Both the position numbers and the translations under genes were made by a program. Shown piece by piece: positions 29,434-54,477 of a DNA stretch of 64,000 bases. Positions within the stretch are counted from its first letter, which is position 1. Every line of letters starts with the position of its first letter. The DNA lies in assembly GCA_947464275.1 (NCBI GenBank), contig CANHVU010000007.1, positions 1 through 64,000 of the forward strand. The letters run 5' to 3'. This DNA is from Bacteroidota bacterium. Its GTDB lineage: Bacteria > Bacteroidota > Bacteroidia > UKL13-3. The notes below the pieces were generated by a model. The model was not told the DNA's origin, did not search any database, and saw nothing but the letters and a program-made list of their open reading frames with translations.

Positions 29434-31548
29434 CTATTTTACTACACTACCTACTTCAATGTCTTTTTCTGGGCCTACGCTGTAAAGTTTTCCAAAATCG
29501 TTACCTGCCATTAAAAGCATACCTTGGCTTTCAATTCCTCGTATTTTTCGTGGAGCTAAATTGGCCACAACGGTAACTAATTTGCCTACTAATTCTTCAG
29601 GTTGATAGTATTCAGCAATGCCGCTTAAAATAGTTCTTTTCTCAAAACCTAAATCTACAATTAGTTTCAATAATTTATCAGCTTTTGGCACTTTTTCAGC
29701 TTCTAAAACTTTACCCACTCTTAAGTCTAATTTTTCAAAATCTTCGTAAGTAATATCAGGTTTCAGTTCAGTAAGGCTGCTAGCCTCTGGCTGCTGGCTA
29801 TTGGCTATTTTTATGTTTTCAAGTCGAGTAAGTTGTTTTAAAATTTCTTCATCTTCCACTTGTTTGTATAAAATTTCAGCAGTTCCTAATTGATGATTTT
29901 CCATTAAAATATTTTCGTTGAATAACGAACTCCAATGCAAATCATTAGCAGCTAACATAGCTTTTAACTTAGTAGCAGTATGAGGTAAAAATGGTTCTGC
30001 AGCAATGGCTAATTTGGCGCAAATTTGCAATGCATCAAACATAATTTGTTTAACACTTTCTGCATCTGTTTTTATAAGTTTCCATGGTTCAGTGTCTGCC
30101 AAATATTTATTTCCCGCTCTAGCAACGTTTATAAATTCAGCCTGAGCATCGCGTAGTTTTACCGCATCTAAATCTTCGCGCATGGCATGTAAACTTTGCG
30201 CAATGCTATCCAAACAAGTTTGGCGGCAAGCCAATAATCTTTCATCAGTTAAAGCGCTAGTTACTGCCGGAATTTTACCTTCGTAAAACTTATTGCTTAG
30301 CACCAAAACACGGTTTACAAAATTGCCAAAGATACTTACCAATTCGCTGTTTACGCGAGTTTGGTAATCTTTCCAAGTAAACTCACTGTCTTTGGTTTCA
30401 GGTGCAATGCTGGTTAAAACATAGCGTAATTCGTCTTGACGGTTAGGGAAGTCAACTAAGTATTCGTGTAACCAAACCGCCCAATTACGGCTAGTCGAAA
30501 TTTTATCGCCTTCTAAGTTTAAAAACTCGTTGGCAGGTACATTGGTTGGTAAAATATACTTGCCATGTGTCATCAACATCATTGGGAAAATAATGGCATG
30601 AAACACAATATTATCTTTACCAATAAAATGAATCAGTGCTGTTTCATCGTTTTGCCACCAATCTTGAAAGTTCGAATCCCGATAGCCATCGGGACGAAGT
30701 TCGGAGTTCGAAGTTGCTAGTTGCAAATATTCTTTAGTAGCGCTTATGTATCCAATTGGGGCATCAAACCAAACGTATAATACTTTTCCATCGGCACCTT
30801 CTATTGGAACTGGAACACCCCAATCTAAATCGCGGGTCATGGCTCTAGGTTGTAAACCTTCAGTTAACCAACTACTACATTGGCCTTTAATATTGCTTTT
30901 CCAACCTTCAAAACGTTTAATATATTCTTGAAATTCGGGGCTTTCCTGAATATCACCCATTGGTAAAAACCAATTTTTAGTTTCTTTTAAAACAGGAGTT
31001 GCGCCACTCAATGCTGATTTTGGATTGATTAAATCGGTAGGGCTTAAAGTAGTTCCGCATTTTTCGCATTGGTCGCCATAAGCATTTGGATTTCCGCAAC
31101 GCGGACAAGTGCCAGTTATGTATCTATCGGCTAAAAATTGTTTAGCTTCTTCATCGTAATATTGTTTGGTGATTTCTTCTTTAAAAATACCTTTATCATA
31201 TAAAGTTCTAAAAAATTCCTGTGCGGTATCGTGATGTGTTTTTGAGGAAGTACGGCCGTAATACGAAAAATCTATTCCAAAATCTTTGAAAGCATTTTTC
31301 ATAATGCCATCGTATTTATCAACCACTTGCTGAGGTGTAATTCCTTCTTTTTTAGCTTTAATGGTTATGGGAACTCCATGTTCATCGCTACCACAAATAA
31401 AAAGCACTTCTTTACCTTGCGCTTTTAAATAACGTACATAAATATCGGCAGGAAGGTAACAGCCAGCTAAATGGCCAATATGAACAGGTCCGTTTGCATA
31501 AGGCAAAGCTGCTGTTACTAAATATCTTTTTGGTTCAGAATTATTCAT
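29434..31548 (-). CDS. metG: Methionyl-tRNA synthetase with C-terminal tRNA-binding domain
   Basis: Charges tRNA-Met with methionine. 704 residues: Rossmann core with HIGH-like [10 protein letters not shown] (about 21-29), a four-cysteine zinc knuckle (C148, C151, C161, C164), KMSKS-like KISTS near 349-353, an anticodon-binding helical bundle, and a C-terminal EMAP/Arc1p-like tRNA-binding domain ([22 protein letters not shown] onward). Odd point: two stretches encoded by dispersed-repeat DNA. One lies near residues 277-294 beside the core (the palindrome at 30677-30694); one is in the linker before the tRNA-binding domain. Both keep the frame. Confidence 0.97.
29775..29808. repeat. Dispersed word tract inside metG (linker)
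   Basis: GGCTGCTAG-type words repeated (ggctgctagcctctgg, then ctgctggctattggctat) sit in the linker before the tRNA-binding domain and encode roughly [11 protein letters not shown]. Low-complexity, in frame. Confidence 0.6.
30677..30694. repeat. CCCGATAG-type palindrome inside metG
   Basis: TCCCGATAGCCATCGGGA, 18 bp with one mismatched pair, next to AAGTTCGGAGTTCGAAGT words. It is inside the coding sequence and read through without a stop. Confidence 0.85.
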
Positions 31549-40761: not shown

Positions 40762-40793
40762 TTAGTTGATAGTTGATGGTTGTTCATTGTTGG

Positions 40794-40821
40794 GTAGAGA
40801 CGTTGCATGCAACGTCTTTAC
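40794..40821. repeat. 28-bp palindromic repeat in the gldF-gldA spacer
   Basis: AGACGTTGCATGCAACGTCT (40798-40817) is a perfect 20-bp palindrome, extended to 28 bp with one mismatch. It sits in a 217-bp spacer that also contains AGTTGATAGTTGATGG words and TTCGACAAGTTCAGC. Non-coding. Confidence 0.85.
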
Positions 40822-42696: not shown

Positions 42697-42725
42697 GCAA
42701 TTAGCAAAAGATGAATTGCCGTTCT

Positions 42726-42741
42726 CCCGAAAGCTTTCGGG
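42726..42741. repeat. CCCGAAAGCTTTCGGG palindrome in the mraZ-rsmH spacer
   Basis: Perfect 16-bp palindrome, a variant of the CCCGATAG repeat. The spacer (42697-42856) also has AAGTACTAAGTACTT and repeated AACTAAGAACTAAAAACT words. Confidence 0.8.
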
Positions 42742-42856
42742 GTTAGCCAACGGAGAGTTGAGAATTGAAATTGATTAATAGCTACTATTCTTTAAACTAA
42801 GTACTAAGTACTTCGAACTAAGAACTAAAAACTGTGAACTAAAAACTAAGAAAAAA

Positions 42857-51833: not shown

Positions 51834-52940
51834 ATGAATAGCAAGAAGAAAATAATAATTAGCGCTGGAGGTACAGGAGGCCATATTTACCCTGCCATTG
51901 CGGTAGCACAAGCATTGCAAAAAAGACTCAACAATGAAGTGGAGTTTTTATTTGTGGGCGCTAGCGATAGAATGGAAATGGAAAAAGTTCCTAAAGCGGG
52001 TTATAAAATAGAAGGATTGTGGATTAGTGGATTGCAACGTAGAATTACTTATAAAAATTTATTGTTTCCTATTAAGGTTGTTTCAAGTATTTTAAAATCG
52101 TTTGGAATTATCAATAGGTTTAAACCCGATGCTGTTATAGGTTTTGGTGGTTATGCAAGTAGTGCGATGCTTTATGTAGCATCGTTAAAAAAACTGCCAA
52201 CTTTAATACATGAGCAAAACTCGTATGCGGGTATTACCAATAAAATATTAAAAGATAAAGTAAATACCATTTGTGTGGCTTACGACAATATGGAAAAGTT
52301 TTTTCCAGCTAATAAGTTGGTAAAAACGGGTAATCCTATTCGTCAAGATTTGTTGGATGTTTCGAGTAAGAAACAACAAGCAATGGCGTTTTTTAAGTTA
52401 GATGCTAATAAAAAAACCATTTTGGTAATAGGCGGAAGCTTGGGAGCACGCACCATTAACGAAAGCATTTTTGAAGGATTAGATAAAATAAAAGAAGCCA
52501 ACGTAAACCTTATTTGGCAAACAGGTAAAAACTTTGATAAGGCAGATAACATTCAACTCCCGATAGCTATCGGGACAACATTCAACATTCAACATTTCAT
52601 TTACGAGATGGACATGGCTTACGCAGCAGCAGATGTTGTAATTTCGAGAGCAGGCGCACTTTCCATAGCTGAGTTAGCACAAGTGGCTAAACCTGTTATT
52701 TTGGTGCCTTCGCCAAATGTGGCCGAAGACCATCAAACAAAAAATGCAATGGCTTTGGTAAATAAAAATGCAGCTATTTTGGTAAAAGATGTAGATGCAA
52801 AAAATAACTTGGTTAGTGAAACGTTAAACTTAATAACCAATGAAAATAAACAAGCTGAATTGGTTAATCAAATAAATACTTTTGCCATGCCCAATGCAGC
52901 CGAGTTAATAGTAGATGAAGTAATCAAATTAATGAAGTAA
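51834..52940 (+). CDS. murG: UDP-N-acetylglucosamine transferase MurG
   Basis: 368 residues. GGTGGHIYPAIAVAQAL and VIGFGGYASSAM bind lipid I, and IGGSLGARTINE with SRAGALSIAELAQVAKPVILVPSPNVAEDHQ contacts UDP-GlcNAc. It converts lipid I to lipid II. Odd point: the loop between WQTGK and the conserved FIYEMDMAYAAAD is coded by a palindrome plus CAACATTCAACATTCAAC words, so residues such as NIQLPIAIGTTFNIQH look repeat-derived. Total length is normal. Confidence 0.97.
   Translation: MNSKKKIIISAGGTGGHIYPAIAVAQALQKRLNNEVEFLFVGASDRMEMEKVPKAGYKIEGLWISGLQRRITYKNLLFPIKVVSSILKSFGIINRFKPDAVIGFGGYASSAMLYVASLKKLPTLIHEQNSYAGITNKILKDKVNTICVAYDNMEKFFPANKLVKTGNPIRQDLLDVSSKKQQAMAFFKLDANKKTILVIGGSLGARTINESIFEGLDKIKEANVNLIWQTGKNFDKADNIQLPIAIGTTFNIQHFIYEMDMAYAAADVVISRAGALSIAELAQVAKPVILVPSPNVAEDHQTKNAMALVNKNAAILVKDVDAKNNLVSETLNLITNENKQAELVNQINTFAMPNAAELIVDEVIKLMK
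52558..52595. repeat. Perfect CCCGATAG palindrome plus CAACATT words inside murG
   Basis: TCCCGATAGCTATCGGGA at 52558-52575 is an 18-bp perfect palindrome, followed by CAACATTCAACATTCAAC. Fully coding and in frame. Confidence 0.92.
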
Positions 52941-52944
52941 TTTC

Positions 52945-54393
52945 ATGGATTTAAAAAATATAAAAACAGCATATTTCCTTGGTATTGGCGGTATTGGCAT
53001 GAGTGCCATTGCTCGTTATTTTAACCATTTGGGTATAAAAGTAATGGGTTACGATAAAACACCTACCGCTTTAACCAATGAGTTGATTAAAGAAGGAATT
53101 GATATTCATTTTGATGATAATGTTGAAAAGGCTATCAACTATCAACTGTCAACTGACAACTGTTTAGTAGTATTAACTCCTGCCATTCCTGCTAATCATC
53201 AAGAGTGGGCTTGGTTTAAAAATAATGGATTCAATATTTTAAAACGTTCACAGGTTCTAGGTTTAATAAGCCAAAATCACCAAACAATTGGAGTAGCTGG
53301 TACTCATGGCAAAACTACCACATCTACTTTAATTGCTCATATTTTAAAACAAAGTTCAGTTGACTGTAATGCCTTTTTAGGCGGAATTTCAACGAATTAT
53401 AATACCAATTTATTACTTACTAGTTCAAAGTTCGAAGTTCAAAGTTCGAAGTTGATTAGTAACTTTTCCGAATCAATAACTAGTAATCAACCAATCAACA
53501 ATTCAACAAGTCAACAATTTGTAGTTATTGAAGCTGATGAATTTGACCGTTCATTTTTAACGTTGCATCCAAGCATTGCTATCATTACTTCAACCGATGC
53601 GGATCATTTGGATATTTATGGTGAGCACAATGAATTGAAAAAATCGTTTTTGGATTATACCAATAAGTTGGTAAGTGGTGGAACGCTTATTATAAAAAAA
53701 GAGCTTGATTTAATTGATGATTTATCGGTAAATTATCTTACTTATTCTATTCAAACCGAAGCTGATATATACGCTAAAAATATAAAAATTACCAAAGGGG
53801 ATTATACTTTTGATTTGGTTTATAAAGGCACTGAAATACTTGGTTTACAATTAGGAATTCCAGGTTTGCATAATGTTGAAAATGCAGTAGCAGCAAGCGC
53901 AGCTTGTTTAATGAGTGGTGTAACCGAAAGTGAATTACGCGATGCATTGCTAGGTTTTAAAGGTGTTAAGCGTAGGTTCGAATACATTATAAAATCGGAA
54001 AATCAAATTTATATTGACGATTATGCCCATCATCCTGAAGAGTTAAGGGCTATTGTTTCGTCAGTAAAAAATATGTATCCTGAAAATGAAATTGTAGTGG
54101 CTTTTCAACCTCATTTGTTTACACGTACCCGCGATTTTGTAGACGGATTTGCTGAAAGTTTATCAATTGCCAACGAGGTGTTTTTGTTGGATATTTATCC
54201 TGCTCGCGAATTACCAATTGAAGGAGTTACCTCAAAAATAATTTTGGATAAAATTACTTCTAAAAAGCATTTGGTAAGCAATGCCGAATTGTTAGAAGCT
54301 GTAAAAACCAATCAGCCAAAAGTATTTTTAACATTAGGCGCTGGCGATATTGATTTATTGATAAAACCAATCAAAGAAATTTTAGAGAAATAA
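52945..54393 (+). CDS. murC: UDP-N-acetylmuramate-L-alanine ligase
   Basis: 482 residues, about 25-35 longer than usual. FLGIGGIGMSAIARYF at the start; ATP loop GTHGKTT (119-125); VVIEADEFDRSF and STDADHLDIYGEHNEL; and the C-terminal DDYAHHPEELRAI and FQPHLFTRTRDF. Joins L-Ala to UDP-MurNAc. Odd: residues 159-191 (between NYNTNLLL and FVVIEADEFD) come from repeat words (53421-53520), as do residues 64-73. The start lies 2 nt after the murG stop. Confidence 0.97.
   Translation: MDLKNIKTAYFLGIGGIGMSAIARYFNHLGIKVMGYDKTPTALTNELIKEGIDIHFDDNVEKAINYQLSTDNCLVVLTPAIPANHQEWAWFKNNGFNILKRSQVLGLISQNHQTIGVAGTHGKTTTSTLIAHILKQSSVDCNAFLGGISTNYNTNLLLTSSKFEVQSSKLISNFSESITSNQPINNSTSQQFVVIEADEFDRSFLTLHPSIAIITSTDADHLDIYGEHNELKKSFLDYTNKLVSGGTLIIKKELDLIDDLSVNYLTYSIQTEADIYAKNIKITKGDYTFDLVYKGTEILGLQLGIPGLHNVENAVAASAACLMSGVTESELRDALLGFKGVKRRFEYIIKSENQIYIDDYAHHPEELRAIVSSVKNMYPENEIVVAFQPHLFTRTRDFVDGFAESLSIANEVFLLDIYPARELPIEGVTSKIILDKITSKKHLVSNAELLEAVKTNQPKVFLTLGAGDIDLLIKPIKEILEK
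53133..53163. repeat. CAACTGTCAACTGACAACT word tract inside murC
   Basis: Words of the form AACTATCAACTGTCAACTGACAACTG in frame, encoding about INYQLSTDNCL at residues 64-74. A related TTGATAGTTGATGGTTGTT tract lies near 40765-40785. Confidence 0.7.
53421..53520. repeat. AAGTTCGAAGTTC tract plus TCAACAATTC words inside murC
   Basis: AGTTCAAAGTTCGAAGTTC occurs twice in 37 bp, then a TAGTAATCAACCAATCAACAATTCAACAAGTCAACAATTT-like region made of repeated words. It encodes an insertion of about 33 residues. Confidence 0.88.
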
Positions 54394-54409: not shown

Positions 54410-54477
54410 GTCCGATAGCTATCGGACAAGCTCAATGACCGAGAGTGGTCGTTGAGCTTTCCCGATAACTATCGGGA
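54410..54477. repeat. Composite palindrome between murC and ftsQ
   Basis: GTCCGATAGCTATCGGAC (54410-54427), then AAGCTCAATGACC / GGTCGTTGAGCTT hairpin (54428-54440 and 54447-54459, one G-T), then TCCCGATAACTATCGGGA (54460-54477). The two halves are also inverted copies of each other (25 of 31 positions), so the whole is a MITE- or BIME-like unit made of three nested hairpins. It fills most of the murC-ftsQ spacer. Confidence 0.9.

Follow-up and report, generated by a model that had tools for sequence, protein, structure and literature searches.

The palindrome within the murG gene of this Bacteroidota genome is probably a minimal palindromic element, dispersed in many copies, that was inserted there recently. 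The genome is a 3.4-Mb draft, belonging to class Bacteroidia as judged by its relatives, and the window analyzed is a stretch of 64,000 nucleotides. The perfect 18-bp palindrome TCCCGATAGCTATCGGGA, reported in murG by an initial annotation, is indeed found there and in frame: the reading frame continues through it, and its codons give LPIAIGT. That annotation placed CAACATT repeats after the palindrome, and three copies do follow it, but part of the array stands to its left too; with units on both sides, the array is interrupted rather than merely preceded. The features of the locus are as follows.

51834..52940, plus strand: murG, an ORF of 368 aa in which the palindrome encodes about residues 242–248.
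52548..52557, plus strand: left part of the CAACATT (7-bp) array, AACATTCAAC, interrupted by the palindrome (from the sequence and the empty array in L005–L009).
52558..52575, no strand: 18-bp perfect palindrome TCCCGATAGCTATCGGGA, in place of 3 nt (ATC/ATT) that the ancestral array had there.
52576..52596, plus strand: right part of the CAACATT array, three copies (from the sequence).

The MurG genes of L005–L009 (86%–88% identical) contain the 7-bp array without the palindrome, which is shared, among the MurG compared, only by the nearest relative, L010 (98% identical). Because the array stands without the palindrome in sister species, the latter is a recent insertion, and it is very probable that a dispersed element entered the murG array. 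The alignment goes from AACATCCAAC-ATC-CAACATTCAA to AACATTCAAC-TCCCGATAGCTATCGGGA-CAACATTCAA, i.e., 3 nt become 18, a net gain of 15 nt or five codons; hence the reading frame is kept. The palindrome had been proposed to replace the variable loop of MurG. It does lie in that loop, but just 3 nt are replaced and the loop grows by five residues; the proposal was also incomplete, as the 7-bp array predates the palindrome and the insertion follows an exact exchange of 3 nt for 18. The encoded peptide is confined to this species and its nearest relative. In the structure model, the palindrome-encoded residues form a coil between H235–239 and E250–253, and pLDDT falls below 50 solely at 243–246, within this stretch. 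Solved MurG structures align across the insert region and have loops of similar length there. The CAACATT array is predicted by the model to encode a disordered loop, the five added residues are apparently tolerated, and the element presumably has no specific job in MurG.

One could instead regard the hairpin as a selected regulatory element of the murG mRNA, acting through translation pausing or RNA stability, much as the initial annotation suggested when it supposed that the hairpin might slow translation or RNA decay. The RNA does fold in silico into a hairpin with a 7-bp stem, more stable than shuffled sequences (z −3.4). Yet the close MurG genes of L005–L009 and L014 lack it, as do all the others compared except that of L010; the same 18-mer occurs at unrelated sites, including unrelated genes, CRISPR repeats, and tRNA copies; and the copies of this genome are mostly outside genes. 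With nearly all relatives devoid of the hairpin, the idea is unsupported and a regulatory role is highly improbable.

The palindrome is one of many copies in the genome. Exact copies of TCCCGATAGCTATCGGGA number nine, against 7.6e-6 expected from base composition, and 34 copies are found with ≤3 mismatches, whereas the reversed control pattern gives none and one, respectively. The variant copies are mostly perfect palindromes too (e.g., TGCCGATAGCTATCGGCA, TTCCGATAGCTATCGGAA, TCCCGAAAGCTTTCGGGA), indicating that both arms change together. Some subfamilies are embedded in longer conserved units of roughly 40–70 bp; a conserved flank was looked for among the murG-type copies of TCCCGATAGCTATCGGGA, and none is shared. 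Only two copies are inside conserved genes of this genome, those of murG and metG; each is in frame and within a 7-bp array. The palindromes of murG, metG, and the murC-ftsQ spacer had been taken as one family, and rightly so, as the sequences at 30677–30694, 54410–54427, and 54460–54477 are members of it. The other relevant features of the window are the following.

29434..31548, minus strand: metG, methionyl-tRNA synthetase, 704 aa, with the second intragenic copy.
30677..30694, no strand: metG copy TCCCGATAGCCATCGGGA, one mismatch, in frame, in a CGAAGTT array (family match).
30695..30715, no strand: CGAAGTT 7-bp array to the right of the metG copy (tandem-repeat search).
42725..42742, no strand: subfamily member TCCCGAAAGCTTTCGGGG in a longer REP-like unit (ATTGCCGTT...AACGG), adjoining a 7-bp array at 42795–42852.
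54410..54427, no strand: variant palindrome GTCCGATAGCTATCGGAC, murC-ftsQ spacer.
54460..54477, no strand: variant palindrome TCCCGATAACTATCGGGA, murC-ftsQ spacer.

The two variant palindromes of the murC-ftsQ spacer (54410–54477) surround another inverted repeat; in L010 this spacer has one decayed palindrome only, and in L005–L009 it is short. A second palindrome family, AGACGTTGCATGCAACGTCT, is found beside a TAGTTGA array at 40763–40817 of the window and may follow the same rules.

The distribution extends well beyond this species. The exact 16-bp core is present in 15 of 40 relatives, with 1 to 26 copies each (the most in G012), and these relatives span at least five families of Bacteroidia. 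In the viral-contig collection, the 18-mer occurs in 37 stretches, whereas two palindromes with the same letters rearranged occur in 0 and 1. In-frame copies are found in the glycyl-tRNA synthetase (GlyRS, glyS) of a relative (L175, a short fragment without Pfam match, identified by PDB search), in the type I restriction specificity subunit HsdS (L247, PF01420), in a PKD–CHU_C interdomain linker (L158), and in a viral-contig protein (L333). The palindrome can be read as P-I-A-I-G or P-D-S-Y-R, and both of these open frames are used, while the third has TAG. With two of three frames open and a net change of +15 that keeps the frame, the insert can be tolerated in disordered loops of essential proteins. 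By its appearance, L163 is a candidate MurF–alanine racemase fusion.

Movement was read from filled versus empty sites in different species. The net change seen in murG recurs at six more independent filled/empty sites, comprising intergenic sites, a dispersed repeat, and a CRISPR repeat.

C10:102928: GAT replaced, 3 nt for 18.
C11:25091: AAC replaced, plus one substitution; filled in this genome and G003, empty in G004.
C5:70841: 5 nt versus 20 (net +15), read as 3 for 18 plus two substitutions.
Dispersed repeat of G006: GTT replaced, with many empty paralogues.
C20:8789: GGC replaced, 3 nt for 18.
CRISPR repeat of G025: the three nt between CTTGAAA and CGATATTT replaced by a variant palindrome, CCCCGATAGCTATCGGGG.

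At two further sites, one a partial copy of tRNA-Asn in G012 and the other a repeat found on contigs of IMG/VR, 6 nt are replaced. The replacement of 3 nt is likely, with good confidence, to be a real rule.

Several of these loci have features of their own. The partial tRNA-Asn copy of G012 (L231:289–335) is interrupted by the palindrome and has the intact gene adjacent to it. The CRISPR repeats of G025 are 47 bp long (L369:1–780, L370:1–300) and lie beside cas1/cas2-like ORFs and a cas9-like gene; degenerate relatives of these repeats carry the palindrome and a second, longer insert, and could be tracrRNA or decayed repeats. On a viral contig (L329:4830–4910), a tRNA-like sequence is interrupted in its 5′ half by the palindrome; the Rfam match covers its 3′ part only, and ARAGORN calls no tRNA there. 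All 10 of the 10 genus genomes searched have a dispersed repeat, intergenic and about 145 bp long (L241, L315–L325).

The register of the flanks provides a separate line of evidence. Among 83 independent copies from about a dozen genomes, with the expectation taken from re-paired flanks, the right flank repeats the left one at a shift of 4 in 8 copies (0.61 expected), of 11 in 5 copies (0.04 expected), and of 18 in 3 copies (0.10 expected). A plain insertion into a 7-bp array predicts matches at shifts of 7 or 14, and the flanks do not show this pattern. Hence, the flanks indicate a 3-nt replacement in a 7-bp array and not a plain insertion. The excess at shift 4 could also be read as a transposon-like insertion with a 4-bp target duplication, as for a MITE of a DDE transposase. 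Indeed, identical 4-mers flank the array copies (CAAC, CGAA, CTAA, TTGG, GCCA), and the purQ-upstream array of G006, compared with that of G005 (L256), is readable as 18 bp plus a duplicated TGGC; it was these observations that first suggested a target duplication. However, these 4-mers arise of themselves when 3 nt are replaced in a 7-bp array, two transposon ends would not fit into 18 bp, and the sites outside or near arrays (C10:102928, C11:25091, C5:70841, the G006 repeat, and the CRISPR repeat) lose 3 nt instead of gaining 4. On the evidence of the empty non-array sites the duplication was rejected, and we regard it as very unlikely.

The arrays in which the element is found are themselves unusual. 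A 404-kb sample of this genome contains 15 arrays with period 7 and 8 with period 8, whereas order-3 Markov simulations gave no such arrays; the other periods from 5 to 13 are almost unrepresented. As this sample was drawn around palindromes and not at random, the array density is possibly inflated, with the period preference unaffected. The periodicity control held a constant 1% from one locus (N runs or low complexity), and the periodicity rests on the Markov simulations and the flank-shift analysis. Next to murG, the murC gene contains three such arrays.

53131..53163, plus strand: murC loop 1, 7-bp array TCAACTA/TCAACTG; sister species have different words at this position.
53422..53453, plus strand: murC loop 2, 7-bp array AGTTCRA, absent from L010 and L005–L009.
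53485..53517, plus strand: murC loop 2, 8-bp array AATCAACA.

In the loops of murG, murC, and metG, sister species have different array words between similar flanks. The MurG loop has CAACATT here and in L005–L009, GAACTTC in L014 (flank identity 0.98/0.84), an AATTCTA-type word in L011, and CAAACTT in L015. Loop 1 of MurC keeps a constant length of 45 nt (48 in two), with TCAACTA here, AACATTY in L007, TTCGAAT in L008 and L011, and CCAATTG in L015; more distant relatives have no array there. The MetRS loop has GAACTTC and the palindrome here, AACTGGC/GCCAGAA in G003, and GCTAGCA/GCCAGAG in G004, the last two proteins being both 97% identical and yet different in their loop words; others have GGACCAT or CGCACTT. 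At this MetRS loop (30660–30715 of the window, L263–L269), at least four unrelated 7-bp arrays are found within one genus. The 7-bp arrays of MurC (53131–53163 and 53422–53453, and those in murC of L007, L008, L011, and L014) encode surface loops. Slippage followed by homogenization of mutated units could explain the replacement of words; transfer of arrays between loci is an alternative. Hypervariable 7-bp arrays in essential proteins of close species are a second, testable oddity and a source of rapid loop evolution.

As to how the element spreads, the 18-bp unit enters new sites by replacing 3 (sometimes 6) nt. New copies would be made from existing ones in a sequence-specific manner, by something that recognizes the single-stranded foldback. 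The likeliest agent may be a RAYT/REP-type Y1 (HUH) transposase that acts in trans, although we hold this attribution as doubtful. There are 11 Y1 matches in this genome, some flanked by other palindromes. One RAYT-like Y1 gene, L105, is a pseudogene with one internal stop; 11 nt past its stop codon, the GTAG-tagged variant TTCCGATAGCTATCGGAA starts. This position at the 3′ end of the gene is what one would expect of a canonical GTAG-type REP/BIME with its RAYT, an unlikely explanation for the family as a whole, as the 18-bp copies, that of murG included, have neither a conserved GTAG or CGTC neighbor nor any shared flank. Elsewhere in these genomes, the palindromes bounding Y1 genes are unrelated ones, and the 18-mer flanks none of the intact Y1 genes examined. 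Two Y1 genes of this genome, L106 and L103 (on C2 and C27), have palindromes of their own on either side (GGTTCGGATTGCAAATCCGAACC, CCGTGGATTTCAATCCACGG) and in this resemble classic RAYT loci. Co-occurrence as a simple link to Y1 gave a mixed outcome, contradicted by G012, which has 26 copies and no PF01797 (Y1) match. An autonomous element bounded by two palindromes was also considered; no transposase ORF was recognized between close pairs when ORFs were read by eye. To our knowledge, no transposase gives a 3-nt replacement.

No dedicated enzyme would be needed if copies arose from another array or hairpin by replication template switching or ectopic conversion through short flanking identity. 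Copies lie within 7/8-bp arrays and at hairpin tips more than expected, inverted flank arms of at least 8 are found in 3 copies versus 0.05 expected, and G012 is rich in copies without a Y1 match. A constant replacement of 3 nt at sites without common flanking sequence is not expected from template switching, nor is an identical 18-mer across five families of the class, and we consider this route possible at most.

The recurring exchange of 3 nt for 18, as read from the sequences, points to an undescribed minimal mobile element. A bolder reading, which we put forward tentatively, is that of a new kind of minimal mobile DNA: a loopless 18-bp palindrome across Bacteroidia, with a dedicated substitution of 18 nt for exactly 3 that never shifts the frame and that favors 7-bp arrays. 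If the rule is true, few known mobile sequences are as small as this element, and a substitution that keeps the frame would explain the entry into the essential genes murG, metG, and glyS. The length of the replaced target would then offer a clean, countable signature when searching for the enzyme or replication error behind REP-like short palindromes.

Searches of PubMed Central text with CCCGATAGCTATCGGG and CCGATAGCTATCGG gave no match. Palindromic repeats within genes are already known, both for REPs (PMC3733652) and for the Rickettsia palindromic elements, or RPE (PMC10969869). REP elements, of the GTAG and CGTC superfamilies and with their RAYT/TnpA-REP transposases, are likewise short dispersed palindromes in many copies, mostly intergenic and sometimes in genes, and one variant subfamily here (TTCCGATAGCTATCGGAA) has GTAG and adjoins a Y1 gene. 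In contrast with REPs, the 18-bp unit is fully self-complementary and loopless, has no tag tetranucleotide and no conserved flank, and is characterized by its exact 3-nt target replacement. Surveyed REPs of Bacteroidetes comprise CGTC repeats only (PMC3733652, PMC2817692, PMC8266576). RPE also occur in frame in ordinary protein genes, add a peptide, and are missing from orthologues, but they are about 150 bp long with a conserved encoded peptide (PMC10969869, PMC3733652), whereas the unit has 18 bp, adds 5 net residues, uses two frames, belongs to another phylum, and shows no sequence relation. Among long simple repeats of bacteria, the commonest unit is 7 nt, as in the TAACTGA repeats, and polymerase slippage has been proposed as their origin, according to the account of Mrazek (2007) given in PMC4679880. 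The tandem 7- and 8-bp units around the palindrome are similarly beyond chance; they differ in their many words, their presence in essential genes, the wholesale swap of words at a constant loop position, and the palindromes that occupy them in fixed register. MITEs are small, non-autonomous, and dispersed as well, but the unit lacks separate terminal inverted repeats, the non-array sites tested show no target duplication, and no autonomous partner was found. As it fails the REP tag, the RPE size and peptide, and the MITE target duplication, the 18-bp unit is assigned to neither REP nor RPE. These remain its closest known kinds, and it behaves like them while being smaller and following a target rule of its own.
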